From: Candidatus Vecturithrix granuli
GTDB lineage: Bacteria > Moduliflexota > Moduliflexia > Moduliflexales > Moduliflexaceae
Direction: 5' to 3'
Length of the DNA: 39,311 bases
Assembly: GCA_000739535.1 (NCBI GenBank)
Contig: DF820464.1
Span: 590,997 to 630,307, forward strand
This document shows, in pieces, positions 34,655 through 39,311 of the stretch (the stretch's first letter is position 1; every line of letters begins with the position of its first letter). The position numbers and the translations under genes were made by a program. The notes beneath the pieces are model-generated. The model did no database searches. It was not told where the DNA came from and was given only the letters and a program-made list of their open reading frames with translations.

Positions 34655-34860
34655 CGTCCCGAAGGGACGGGATATGGTAGCCCAGGGTGTCAACCCTGGG
34701 GCTGAACATCCGACGTGTATGCCCTCCCCTCCCCGCGTTCCGCCGCCGCTCGCGGCGGCGGAACGCGGGGAGGGGAGGGGGGAATCCGCTTCTTGTCCCA
34801 GGGCTGACACCTGGGCTACCAGATTCCGCCCCGTTGGGGCTTACAAGCTTATCCCGAACT
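34655..34860. repeat. Composite nested palindrome inserted in the toxin gene
   Basis: A 27-bp perfect stem (34722-34748 with 34753-34779, core CCGCGTTCCGCCGCCG, loop CTCG) is nested inside outer arms 34677-34700 and 34797-34819 (GTAGCCCAGG type). A small CGTCCCGAAGGGACG hairpin lies at 34655-34669. The DNA is far more GC-rich than its surroundings and non-coding. Confidence 0.85.
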
Positions 34861-34864
34861 CACG

Positions 34865-34969
34865 CAGGACTTACGCAATACCCCCCTCAGTCCCCCCGTA
34901 AACGGGGGGAAGCTCGCAGAAGAGCGTCACGTCTTCCCCCCGCTTGCGGGGGGCTGTGCATAAGTCCTG
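34865..34969. mobile_element. Palindromic element type P, copy 2, in the toxin gene
   Basis: A 105-bp element has 13-bp terminal repeats with one mismatch (CAGGACTTACGCA and TGCATAAGTCCTG) and two internal GC hairpins (CCCCCCGTAAACGGGGGG and CCCCCCGCTTGCGGGGGG). Its right end exactly borders the coding sequence of the toxin N-terminus. Copy 1 is at 24481-24715. Confidence 0.82.
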
Positions 34970-35047: not shown

Positions 35048-35185
35048 TTATTTCCCTCCTTCCACATGGGCAATTTCTTCCTCGGTTACGCCATACAGCG
35101 CGTACACCAGTCGGTCAAGCTCCGCTTCCAGGGTGCGAGGTCGGGGCGGAGTGCGCTGTGTGTTGAGTTGTTCAACACGAGGGGA
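35048..35185 (-). pseudogene. Remnant of a restriction-modification gene 3-prime end, copy 2
   Basis: The minus strand encodes RTLEAELDRLVYALYGVTEE followed by EIAHVEGGK and a stop, matching the C-terminus of the protein at 35913-39311 (RALEAELDRLVYALYGLTEA...). The frame is open upstream as far as PRVEQLNTQ, overlapping the vapC end. No start codon. The fragment abuts the disrupted toxin gene, its AAGGAGGG being the toxin's ribosome-binding site. Confidence 0.8.
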
Positions 35186-35564
35186 ACACATTCACCTGAT
35201 AGTTTTTGATCACGGGGTCATCCGTAATGAGTACCATTTCTTCAAAGATTGTCTGAGCAATCAACATGCGATCAAACGGATCTTTATGGATCATAGGTAA
35301 GGTTGCCAGGGTCAATGAATGTTCAATTGTGATGGGGAGAGGGAGCATACGATTGATGCGCAGTTGATCCCTGATAAATTCTTCCGGCGACGGCGGCAGC
35401 GAGAGTTTTCCGATCACCGACTTAATGATCATTTCCCAGGTACTTGCCGCGCTCACATACATTTCGTGGTCAGGTGCAGCAATCACGCACTTCGCCGCCG
35501 CAGATAATTTCGGCTGATCAACGATCCACCATAAAAAGATGTGCGTATCTAACAAATATCTCAT
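35172..35564 (-). CDS. VapC-type PIN-domain toxin
   Basis: The protein has 130 residues. PIN-domain features: N-terminal YLLDTHIFLWW (first acidic residue), then SAASTWEMIIK with E, and HKDPFDRMLIAQ with D, ending VLITDDPVIKNY. This is the DTHxxLW subclass of PIN ribonuclease toxins, which cleave tRNA or rRNA. Its ATG overlaps the antitoxin stop (ATGA, 35561-35564). The gene appears intact, although its last few codons run into the restriction-enzyme remnant. Confidence 0.9.
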   Translation of the reverse strand: MRYLLDTHIFLWWIVDQPKLSAAAKCVIAAPDHEMYVSAASTWEMIIKSVIGKLSLPPSPEEFIRDQLRINRMLPLPITIEHSLTLATLPMIHKDPFDRMLIAQTIFEEMVLITDDPVIKNYQVNVFPSC

Positions 35565-35776
35565 TGGTAAAATGCCTCCAGCGCCTCGCCATCCAATGGG
35601 GCCGCAAAGTCGTCAGCGATCCGGATTTGTCCCCTGGCTGAACCTGGAACTCTGGGGCGAACCTCGACCGGTTCATCTTCTAAAAACGTGACGATCACGC
35701 GGATATTCGGACGGACATGAATCTCTTCTAAAAACTGAATGTTGTTGCCGGTATAAATGCCGCGAATAGCAAGCAT
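35561..35776 (-). CDS. VapB-type antitoxin
   Basis: ATG 35776 (minus strand) lies behind AAAGGAGG; the longer frame from 35851 lacks a site. The 71 residues begin MLAIRGIYTGNNIQFLEEIH and VRPNIRVIVTFLEDEP, a beta-hairpin antitoxin N-terminus, and end with an acidic helix (DFAAPLDGEALEAFYQ) that would block the toxin's active site. Its stop overlaps the toxin start, so translation is coupled. Confidence 0.82.
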   Translation of the reverse strand: MLAIRGIYTGNNIQFLEEIHVRPNIRVIVTFLEDEPVEVRPRVPGSARGQIRIADDFAAPLDGEALEAFYQ

Positions 35777-35912
35777 ACGCTTTTCCTCCTTTCGATTCGC
35801 TCGATAGGGCGCAACATCACGTTTCCGGGCGGACATTGCACCGATGCACACAATTGAGAATGCTCATCGTGCTCTTTTTTTGTCAAGCATTCGCTGCTGT
35901 ATTATTGGTATC

Positions 35913-38900
35913 TTATGCGTTTTTCCCCTCCACAATGGTAATCTCGGCCTCGGTTAAGCCATACAGCGCATACACCAGCCGGTCAAGCTCCGCTTCCAGG
36001 GCGCGGGTGTCGGCGGCGGGATTCTGCTGTTTGGCTGCGAGGATGTGGTCAACCAATACCTCGAACGGTTGTTGCTCCGCAGGAGAAATTCGTTTGATCG
36101 GCATTTGTTCGATTTTGTATTTTAACCACCGATTTGTCCCCATGCCAGACGTGGTTGAAATTTGCTCAAAATACCATTTCGACAGGCGTGAATTTAAGAT
36201 CGCAAGTAAATACTTCAAACATTCGCCTGTTATCATAAAAACAGTGTTATTCAAAAAATGCTTCTGTTCATCATAAGCAAACTTGGGTTCATTTGACAAT
36301 TCTCCCCAAATAATTTTCGGTTTTTCAAAATCATCATAATAAGCGCATTTTCTTAATTCCCACCAATAATCTCCCTGATCATCCCTATCAAACAACCCTT
36401 TTCCTTTTCCTGTTACAGTTAATCCAATGTGTTTTAAATGGTTATACAATTCAGGTAACATACTGGCGATAAACGTTTGAGGTGCAGTTGTTCCTCTATG
36501 TTGATTTGTCCATCCTGATTTGATTACGATAAGATAACAATCATCCCATTTATAGAAGAATTTCTGTACATCTTTACCACGTAAAAGAGGTTTTATGTAA
36601 TTTCGATTATTAGAATTTTTAAGAAATTCCTCTTTTCGTTTGGTATTGATGATAAAAGCATCGGAAAATCCAAGAGTTAAACCACGATTTATTTCTATAT
36701 TCCATTCTTTCAACAAAACGGAGTCATGTTCAATCTTTTGTTTTAGGACAAGAGTATCAGTATCCCCAACAATCCATCCGTTTTTATCCAATGCTATCAG
36801 GGTAATATGCTTTTGTTGAAAATAATCGGCCAGAAGCGTTGTTTTATCAAAATCATCTGTAACGGTAACGGCTTTGAGTTGGTTTTGAAATCGGGTTTTT
36901 TGCGTCAGCAGAATATTACTTTCCACAATCGCGGATTCGAAAATTTGAGCATTCTCGAAATTTAGCAATTGCAACGGGTTGGTGTGTTCGGCAAAATACG
37001 TCCGCAACAATTCGCCGTATTGGGTGCGCATCCAGGAATTTGACGTAATGTAACACAAAATGCCGTTCTCTTTCAACACGTGTAAGCCTTTTTCATAAAA
37101 CAGGCAATACACGTCGGATAATTTCGAGTAGGTTGCAAAACCTTGTTTCGCCAAAAGCGAGGATTGCGTTTTCATTTTCTGCAATTGTACATACGGCGGA
37201 TTGCCGATCACAATATCAAATCCTTCTTTCAGGCCAAACATCCATTCCGGGTCGAAAAAATCGGCTTTGGCGTTCTGGTCGTAGGGGTCAAACGATACAA
37301 GCTGTCTGGCTGATTCAGGCGTCCATTGGTTGTCATGCACGAGCAGTTGGGCGATCTGCTGCCGGAGCGCGCGATCCGCGTGCTGGCAGGCCATTTTTGC
37401 TTTGCGGGTTTTCGCGCTGAAATAGCGATGGCGCAGGTCTTTCAGTTGTTCTTCCAGGGCCATGATGGCCTTGTTTTCGAAAAGATTGGCCTGGGCCGGC
37501 GGCTTTTCCAATCCGATCAGCGTATTGGCCGCCACAAACTTGGTTTCTAAATTGGGCAGGGCGCGAACGCCCAGGTTCTCTTTGGCGGGATTGACCTGTT
37601 GGTCAACAATCAGCGAAATGAACACGCGCAGTTTGCTGATCTGAATGGCAATCGGCTGAATGTCCACGCCGTAAATGCCGTTTTCAATCAAATACAGCTT
37701 GCGGCCGTAATCCGAGGCGTTTTCTTCGAAAACGTCGTTAATCTCCAGCAGGCGTTTATCGCGTTCCTCTTTGTTACCCAGCAAAAACGCCTGCTCCGTC
37801 TCTTGAATGGCTTGCCGGCGTTGGGTTTCGCGCCAGCGGACATTGGCAGGGTCGAGTTTCGTGAGAATGTGCACCATTTTGTGCAGCATTCCCATCGGGA
37901 ACGCGCCGGAGCCGCAGGCCGGATCAAGAATTTTGGCCGCGTGCAAGGCCGTGATCAGGGTCGCGACTTCGGCATCGGTGAATTGGTGCGGCGCGTCGGT
38001 GTAAGCGAGCAGATGGCGCAGACGGTCTGAACTGTGATTTATGTGATTTTCATGATGACTCTGATAAGAGGGAATTGTCGCTAAATCATGGGAATCATGC
38101 CCATCACAGGAATCACAGTTCAGACAGTTGCCCAAATACGCGATCAAACTTTCATCTACCATGTAATTGACGATTTCGCGCGGGGTATAAAAACTGCCGG
38201 TCTGCTTGCGCGCGGTGGTTTGCGTTTCGGGGTTGTAGCTGGCTAACAGGTTTTCGAACACCTTGCCCAACAGTTCCGGGTCCAACGCGATTTCTTCTTC
38301 AATCGGCGTGTTTTCGGCAATCGTAAATTTGTAAGCGGCCAGAATATCGAACAGCCCTTTCACCGTGTAGGTTTTATTTTTCGTGCCGTACAGGGCGTTC
38401 AGGTCCCAGGTCGTTTCATCCCGGAAGAACAGCAGATCGGGCACGATAGCCCGTTTGGCGGCGTTCCGCGTAAAGCCGTCCACAAAAACATGTTTGCCGG
38501 TATCCACGGCGTCTTTGTCCAGGCAATCAAACAGACCGCCGTTTAAAAACGGAATGTTCGCAAACAAGGCTAAGACCTCAGGCGCGCTGATGCTGAATAA
38601 TTCCTTGTAGCGCAGCAGGTTTTTCACGCCGTGATCGGCTTTCACATAATGCTGCGTGTCTTCTGCGAAGCGGCGTTCGTTCATTTTCTGGTTGAGCGTG
38701 CCGAAAAAGAGATTTTGCAAGATGGCGTTATAATAGCTGTGCGCGTCGGGCGTGTCGGCAAACGTTTTCAGGATGCGGCGCATTTCCCGGCGGTCGAACA
38801 GGATGTCTGGCACAAGCTGTTTTTCTTTGATAAACCAGATAAAGATCACGCGGGTAATGAGGCGGATCAGGCTGGTGGCGTTGCGAATTGCGGTGTTTTT

Positions 38901-39311
38901 TTCCACATCATCCGGGAACGACACCTGATCCATGGCCCAGAAATACCAGTTGGCAAGTTCCTGATAAAAGCGTTTATTCAGCAGGGCCACGCTGAAGACG
39001 CGCTGCCAGTATTGGTAGAGCGACTCAAAGGACGTAATCGCCTGTTTGCCGCTGCGCTCAATTTTCAACGTCTCTAAAATTTTCAGGTGCCCGATGTGCG
39101 GATGCGCCGGGTCAACATCTTTAAGAATAGAGACTTTGCCGGTTTTTTCGCCTTCGCGCCAGGTTTGCTTGTAGGGCAGTCGCTCGCAACTGGCAAAGGA
39201 GAGGAGAACCTCCCCCCGCCCCCCTCCGAAGGAGGGGGAGTCGCTCCCCTCCCCTTCGGGGATGGGTTGCGGGTGGGGTGTTCCGGGCCGAGGGTGGGGT
39301 TGCTTCTGATA
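35913..39311 (-). CDS. Type IIG restriction-modification protein (Eco57I-like), 5-prime end outside window
   Basis: The frame is open from the stop at 35913 to the window edge (1133 codons). TTG 39068 is only the first internal start-like codon, because conserved-looking text (LLSFASCERLPYKQTW, VSILKDVDPAHPHIGHLKIL) precedes it. Methylase motifs: QTGSFYTPREIVNYMVDESL, LDPACGSGAFPMGML near 37915, and IVIGNPPYVQL near 37200 (N6-adenine type). The C-terminal third is a TaqI-like target-recognition region (LLRGKDVQKF, YWWELRKCAYYDDF, IIWGELSNEPKFAY) ending LEAELDRLVYALYGL. The nuclease domain would lie beyond the window. Two repeat-derived segments are inserted in frame. It should modify and cut DNA as one polypeptide. 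Confidence 0.88.
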   Translation of the reverse strand, partial: YQKQPHPRPGTPHPQPIPEGEGSDSPSFGGGRGEVLLSFASCERLPYKQTWREGEKTGKVSILKDVDPAHPHIGHLKILETLKIERSGKQAITSFESLYQYWQRVFSVALLNKRFYQELANWYFWAMDQVSFPDDVEKNTAIRNATSLIRLITRVIFIWFIKEKQLVPDILFDRREMRRILKTFADTPDAHSYYNAILQNLFFGTLNQKMNERRFAEDTQHYVKADHGVKNLLRYKELFSISAPEVLALFANIPFLNGGLFDCLDKDAVDTGKHVFVDGFTRNAAKRAIVPDLLFFRDETTWDLNALYGTKNKTYTVKGLFDILAAYKFTIAENTPIEEEIALDPELLGKVFENLLASYNPETQTTARKQTGSFYTPREIVNYMVDESLIAYLGNCLNCDSCDGHDSHDLATIPSYQSHHENHINHSSDRLRHLLAYTDAPHQFTDAEVATLITALHAAKILDPACGSGAFPMGMLHKMVHILTKLDPANVRWRETQRRQAIQETEQAFLLGNKEERDKRLLEINDVFEENASDYGRKLYLIENGIYGVDIQPIAIQISKLRVFISLIVDQQVNPAKENLGVRALPNLETKFVAANTLIGLEKPPAQANLFENKAIMALEEQLKDLRHRYFSAKTRKAKMACQHADRALRQQIAQLLVHDNQWTPESARQLVSFDPYDQNAKADFFDPEWMFGLKEGFDIVIGNPPYVQLQKMKTQSSLLAKQGFATYSKLSDVYCLFYEKGLHVLKENGILCYITSNSWMRTQYGELLRTYFAEHTNPLQLLNFENAQIFESAIVESNILLTQKTRFQNQLKAVTVTDDFDKTTLLADYFQQKHITLIALDKNGWIVGDTDTLVLKQKIEHDSVLLKEWNIEINRGLTLGFSDAFIINTKRKEEFLKNSNNRNYIKPLLRGKDVQKFFYKWDDCYLIVIKSGWTNQHRGTTAPQTFIASMLPELYNHLKHIGLTVTGKGKGLFDRDDQGDYWWELRKCAYYDDFEKPKIIWGELSNEPKFAYDEQKHFLNNTVFMITGECLKYLLAILNSRLSKWYFEQISTTSGMGTNRWLKYKIEQMPIKRISPAEQQPFEVLVDHILAAKQQNPAADTRALEAELDRLVYALYGLTEAEITIVEGKNA
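38025..38125. mobile_element. Repeat element inserted in frame within the restriction-modification gene
   Basis: Perfect 15-bp terminal repeats (GTCTGAACTGTGATT at 38025-38039 and its inverse at 38111-38125) enclose DNA with ATGATTCCCATGATT-like repeats. On the coding strand it reads NCDSCDGHDSHDLATIPSYQ, then SHHENHINHSSD, a composition quite unlike the protein around it. The reading frame is kept, and the insertion lies in a linker after motif QTGSFYTPREIVNYMVDESLIAYL. Confidence 0.8.
39205..39300. repeat. GC-rich palindromic repeat inside the restriction-modification frame
   Basis: CCCCCCTCCGAAGGAGGGGG (about 39222-39242) and CCCCTCCCCTTCGGGGATGG (about 39246-39266) are hairpin-forming units of a common dispersed-repeat type. 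Read on the minus strand they encode PHPRPGTPHPQPIPEGEGSD and SPSFGGGRGE without a stop, directly before the conserved LLSFASCERLPYK. The outer end is close to the window edge. Confidence 0.6.

Follow-up and report, generated by a model that had tools for sequence, protein, structure and literature searches.

Two palindromic elements lying in frame within one restriction-modification gene raise the question of whether genomic repeats are turned into protein here and, if so, how they came to occupy their places. The window, a stretch of 39,311 nucleotides from Candidatus Vecturithrix granuli, ends in this gene (35913..39311, minus strand), which the original prediction had taken to encode a Type IIG enzyme. 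That identity is upheld, since a single chain carries an Eco57I-type methylase domain (PF07669, 36939..37682, minus strand, E 7.6e-39) together with a TaqI-like C-terminal specificity domain (PF12950, 36096..36593, minus strand, E 1.8e-20), the combination that defines the predicted enzyme as Type IIG, and PADLOC calls the gene REase_MTase_IIG (E 5e-132). The motif-X region (GSFYTPREIVNYMVDESL; 38154..38279, minus strand), an N6_Mtase match, forms the upstream border of a linker that leads to methyltransferase motif I, ILDPACGSG (37905..37931, minus strand), which was read in the translation and in the alignment of homologues.

That the gene appears truncated, at 1132 amino acids, is due only to the end of the window at a scaffold gap whose two sides overlap. 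Directly beyond position 39311 come 253 N (L093 3809-4061) and then, in an exact 61-nt overlap, the window's last bases again, which is probably an assembly artefact. Once the overlap is collapsed, a single open frame of 1260 amino acids results, and over residues 1-130 this protein shares 66% identity with a paralogue encoded on contig C17. Directly downstream (35172-35851, minus strand) lies a toxin-like gene with a PIN domain, preceded by a small ORF that probably encodes the antitoxin, and CGCAAAG-type hairpin repeats are found closely upstream of the start of the IIG gene (L093 4521-4629, 5021-5102). The intergenic stretch at 34658-34969, 3' of a phosphoketolase gene, is also rich in repeats, with several hairpins and a perfect 28-nt inverted repeat (34722-34749/34752-34779).

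The first element (38025..38125, minus strand) lies in the linker that joins the motif-X helix to motif I. Its predicted extent of 101 bp was exact, as were its perfect 15-bp inverted repeats (GTCTGAACTGTGATT/AATCACAGTTCAGAC), and the predicted stop-free translation was also borne out, as the element is open in the minus-strand frame of the gene and reads CLNCDSCDGHDSHDLATIPSYQSHHENHINHSSD. Its extended 44-nt arms are 77% complementary, and on both strands it folds as RNA far better than shuffled sequences (z about -7, 0/200 as good). The arms consist of 9-nt TGTGATNNN units of three codons each, so that gain or loss of a unit would preserve the frame. Its termini (GTCTGAACT...) bear no CGTC or GTAG tag, which sets it apart from the REPs so tagged. 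A genome search of the kind originally proposed returned three copies in all, the second in a paralogous gene at the same site (C17:472121, 87%) and the third intergenic (C16:315054; L095 2055-2159), upstream of an hsdM-like gene, 7 bp from its start, and beside another restriction-modification locus. Because one copy is intergenic, the element is independent of the IIG gene. A pattern match in a nadB-like gene (L121) was left out of the count, as its inverted repeat was not evident. The ends of the element also turn up at several places outside this organism, in G058, a distant genome, and in G069, a Flammeovirgaceae genome, so the repeat is common to distant bacteria. In G069, copies of TCTGGACTGTGATT are densely clustered (G069:C14:59973-60724; L127, L131).

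The second insert (about 39207..39303, minus strand) follows the FQYQ strand near the N terminus and reaches the scaffold gap, which sits inside it. It had been described as a GC-rich palindromic repeat near 39205-39300. The in-frame insertion stood, and with 15 matches at about a dozen distinct places in the genome it is a dispersed repeat; the term palindromic fits it less well, its hairpin being no stronger than composition predicts (z -0.07 and -1.86). The second IIG paralogue of this organism has both insertion sites in common with the window gene. In a third Type IIG gene (C20:535453) both inserts are absent, the linker is ordinary, and the N-terminal site reads FRYAQ-FISIANAERMPY, compared with FQYQ-[insert]-LSFASCERLPY in the window gene. 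The two insert-bearing paralogues (L094 235-3780 and window 35913-39311, both minus strand) are mosaic: blocks of 75-87% DNA identity alternate with diverged ones (residues 301-450 and from about 721), and the shared insert may thus come from duplication or gene conversion.

Comparison with homologues extends the observation well beyond one genome. The 80 homologues, which are the best matches to an insert-containing query, all align through the site between the motif-X helix (GSFYTPREIVNYMVDESLIAYL) and RLRHLLAYND...ILDPACGSG, and all but two (L079 and L090, which have stops) are open through the region. When linker inserts are defined as lying between AYLxxxL and RLRHLLAYND, repeats are found in 19 of the 81 genes, and they belong to roughly ten types and about eight phyla. 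The host groups are Nitrospirota and relatives, Bacteroidota, Poribacteria, Anaerolineae, Kiritimatiellia, Elusimicrobia, Desulfobulbaceae and the window's own group. Genes free of repeats mostly have 12-20 residues between the motif-X helix and RLRHLLAYND. The inserts might have proved to be conserved domains shared among homologues; the alignment revealed short linkers or unrelated inserts instead. The long linkers of L088, of L154 and of the L015/L023/L027 type were rejected as repeat inserts, being non-palindromic natural variants.

The linker inserts include a GTCATTCCCGCG REP with a CGTC tag (L020, L022, L025, L080), a GTAGGAGCGAGC REP with a GTAG tag (L043, L050, L052), CCCCCTT..AAGGGGG types (L048, L053, L072), GGGAGAGGG types (L019, L020), CACGGATGA and CACGAAA repeats (L047) and others seen as an inverted repeat or motif (L026, L028, L040, L041, L062). 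The CGTC REP has 67, 33, 5 and 21 copies in the genomes of L020, L022, L025 and L080, respectively (control 0), and the GTAG REP has 29, 7 and 5 in those of L043, L050 and L052 (control 0). In these seven genomes the inserts combine a hairpin, a CGTC or GTAG tag and multiple copies, as REPs, hairpins of 20-40 bp, do, the CGTC tag being imperfect in L020 and L080, where the base before GTC is not C. The GGGAGAGGG type is present in 16 copies in L020's genome (control 1) and 25 in G278 (control 9); in L019's genome only its own copy was found and it is not multicopy there. For L026, L028, L040, L041, L047, L048, L053, L062 and L072, the inserts were assigned by motif or visual inspection, and the zero genomic matches of the L047 CACGGATGA type carry no information, since the pattern had a 10-nt period and the repeat has one of 9. 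The CGTC REP is read in two frames, as HSREGGNP and as VIPAKAGIQ. In the L020 linker a GGGAGAGGG type, a CGTC REP and a CCCCCTCTTAAGATAAGAGGGGG type lie adjacent and together amount to about 60 amino acids. In-frame repeats also occur elsewhere in these proteins, in loops at residues about 155, 199, 315, 340 and 398, so the linker is the most used site and not the sole one.

Because linker inserts had themselves supplied part of the repeat library, it is biased, and an inverted-repeat scan with a lax threshold and shuffled controls served as the unbiased test. The linker, 2.2% of the sequence, contained the centres of ten inverted repeats, and 45 lay elsewhere (binomial p 4e-7), whereas shuffled linker codons gave 0.65. 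A strict scan (score 14) had only four matches, three of them in the organism's own genes. On a gene tree built without the linker, inserted and empty states require at least 14 changes, of which supported branches impose 9; with repeat families kept apart the number is 18. A search of 385 other genomes with an insert-free query found a homologue in 23. Among about 26 genes from outside the own genome one more repeat insert appeared, a GGGAGAGGG palindrome in L155, which indicates that the insertion rate varies with lineage. Linker inserts are thus frequent in near relatives and uncommon across the family at large. A list of best hits would tend to lose genes with out-of-frame insertions, and the perfect in-frame record is therefore partly a product of search selection.

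The best explanation, and a likely one, is that abundant repeats land by chance and are retained where the enzyme tolerates them. Dispersed palindromic repeats would insert at almost any place in the genome. Those that reach the IIG linker in frame and free of stops would add a disordered loop to the protein, would persist because the enzyme can accommodate it, and would drift once acquired. From the motif-X helix to the helix before motif I, sequence and length would be little constrained, so that lineage after lineage could take up whichever repeat family abounds in its own genome. The AlphaFold model of the window protein, of moderate quality overall (pLDDT 73.8, pTM 0.52), has pLDDT under 50 at residues 404-425, between two helices, as expected if the linker is a disordered, flexible loop. 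The model resembles CamA, BseCI, BrxX and BpuSI in structure comparison, and sequence and structure together indicate that the window protein has the fold of Type IIG enzymes and relatives, namely BpuSI (3s1s), BrxX/PglX (8c45) and CamA (7lni). We infer the route of movement of each repeat, as we do the untargeted nature of insertion; the insert-bearing protein is presumably made and active.

A real target preference, or a benefit to the enzyme, would be of high interest if true. We nevertheless consider it unlikely that the linker is a preferred or selected docking site across phyla and that in-frame repeat capture recurrently retunes a defence enzyme. Rather unlikely, too, is a true insertion hot spot, in which the sequence or structure of the linker DNA would attract repeats beyond what tolerance allows, for example through RAYT-type tyrosine transposases. 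In many lineages the insertion points do lie only a few codons apart, and Y1/RAYT-type transposase genes are present in the organism's own genome. Moreover, in a sample of 48 REP copies from two genomes, the copies in the IIG linker and in Cas10 alone are clearly deep in known genes. Five of the 48 are in open frames with 60 amino acids on both sides: these two, one in a methyltransferase-like frame past the recognised domain, and two in frames under 150 amino acids, which look non-coding. In the best-match sample from eight genomes, REP loci deep in a long frame on both sides were the IIG gene every time. However, CGTC REPs, GTAG REPs, GC-rich repeats and palindromes of 9-nt period are unrelated, and one common transposase for all of them is unlikely. 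In addition, the window copy inspected by eye, in a comparison that had no closely related empty allele, displays no clear target duplication, and no Y1 gene of the own genome (the one family checked) adjoins a copy of either repeat. The Cas10 case is a CGTC-type REP in frame in a CRISPR type III gene (L168 2-1438, plus strand, about 1032-1056), just past the second palm domain. As the second clear intragenic REP, it could hint at a general uptake of repeats by defence genes.

More doubtful still is the proposal that the inserts are adaptive, a longer linker or an mRNA hairpin tuning the enzyme by, for example, lowering restriction or pausing translation between domains. It could draw on the recurrence, on the maintained frame and on the state of the flanks, which in the two own paralogues differ by 97 synonymous and 30 non-synonymous changes over 227 codons; the gene therefore remained under selection while holding the insert. 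Within the palindrome insert, however, the same pair has 5 synonymous and 8 non-synonymous differences (Fisher p 0.007 versus flanks), so amino acids change freely there. By these counts purifying selection acts on the flanks but not on the insert. The hairpin also decays: 27 pairs are kept between the two copies, 10 are paired in one copy only, and none is compensatory. In the GC-rich insert, indels between the paralogues shift and then restore the frame within the insert, and across homologues both frames and peptides differ. With free amino-acid change, uncompensated pair loss and internal frame shifts, neither peptide nor hairpin is visibly conserved, while the surrounding enzyme is.

In mitochondrial byp elements, inserts are skipped and the protein is made without them. 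As hairpins within a coding sequence, the present inserts could in principle be skipped or spliced out before or during translation in the same way, but those examined are open in frame and free of stops, which skipping would not need, and we regard this as very improbable. Least credible is the idea that the inserts are debris in a decaying gene, a doubt voiced in the original prediction and fed by the window copy being cut at the edge and by the stops in L079 and L090, given that collapsing the scaffold overlap restores an intact frame and that synonymous differences prevail in the flanks.

Tolerated chance insertion can be set beside several known systems. Rickettsia palindromic elements (RPE; Ogata 2000) are palindromes of about 100 bp with terminal inverted repeats that lie in frame in many genes, and an RPE-bearing guanylate kinase is translated and active (PMC2229807). 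The likeness to RPE drawn originally fits: the window element, with its length, perfect ends and stable stem-loop, falls within the terminal-repeat, stem-loop form of about 100-150 bp, and it too is inserted in frame in a protein gene that has empty homologues. The likeness is one of description and not of class, the element occurring in phyla other than that of Rickettsia, in its own genome, in G058 and in Flammeovirgaceae G069. Furthermore, RPE are one genus's family spread over many genes, whereas here many families meet in a single loop of one enzyme family. REPs with a GTAG or CGTC tag that lie within genes are also inserted in frame, many of them in DNA repair genes, with one same-site case (recB of two Xanthomonas species, with different REPs) and differing sites in the other genes (PMC3733652). 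Several of the homologue inserts bear such tags (CGTCATTCCCGCG, GTAGGAGCGAGC); the main text of that paper makes no mention of restriction enzyme or methylase genes. The enterobacterial RU-1/RU-2/RU-3 elements (ERIC-type MITEs) are open-frame mobile repeats fused in frame to genes and proposed as a source of new peptides, but they are of other families and hosts, and the parts of that report consulted describe no recurrent target (PMC2759123). Nothing relevant came up when the literature was searched for the terminal sequences of the 101-bp element or for peptides encoded by repeats, REGGNP among them, and searches for this linker as a repeat site found no report. Palindromes in frame within proteins are thus already known; what is new within the literature searched is that unrelated repeat families appear to converge, across phyla, on a single loop.

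The suggestion that repeats can create new protein segments holds in a restricted sense, for added and weakly constrained linker length, with no evidence of new function. When such proteins are annotated, odd segments rich in H/S/D or in G/P should be taken as translated repeats and not as domains. As far as sequence comparison can tell, the linker is a recurrent landing pad for unrelated repeats in about eight phyla, at which genomic repeats would repeatedly become protein. What was an anecdote of a palindrome within a protein becomes a replicated natural experiment, with one loop, many unrelated inserts, many phyla and empty homologues as controls. With it one can test directly how noncoding repeats come to be protein, what amount of insertion a large enzyme can bear and whether defence genes are targeted in particular.
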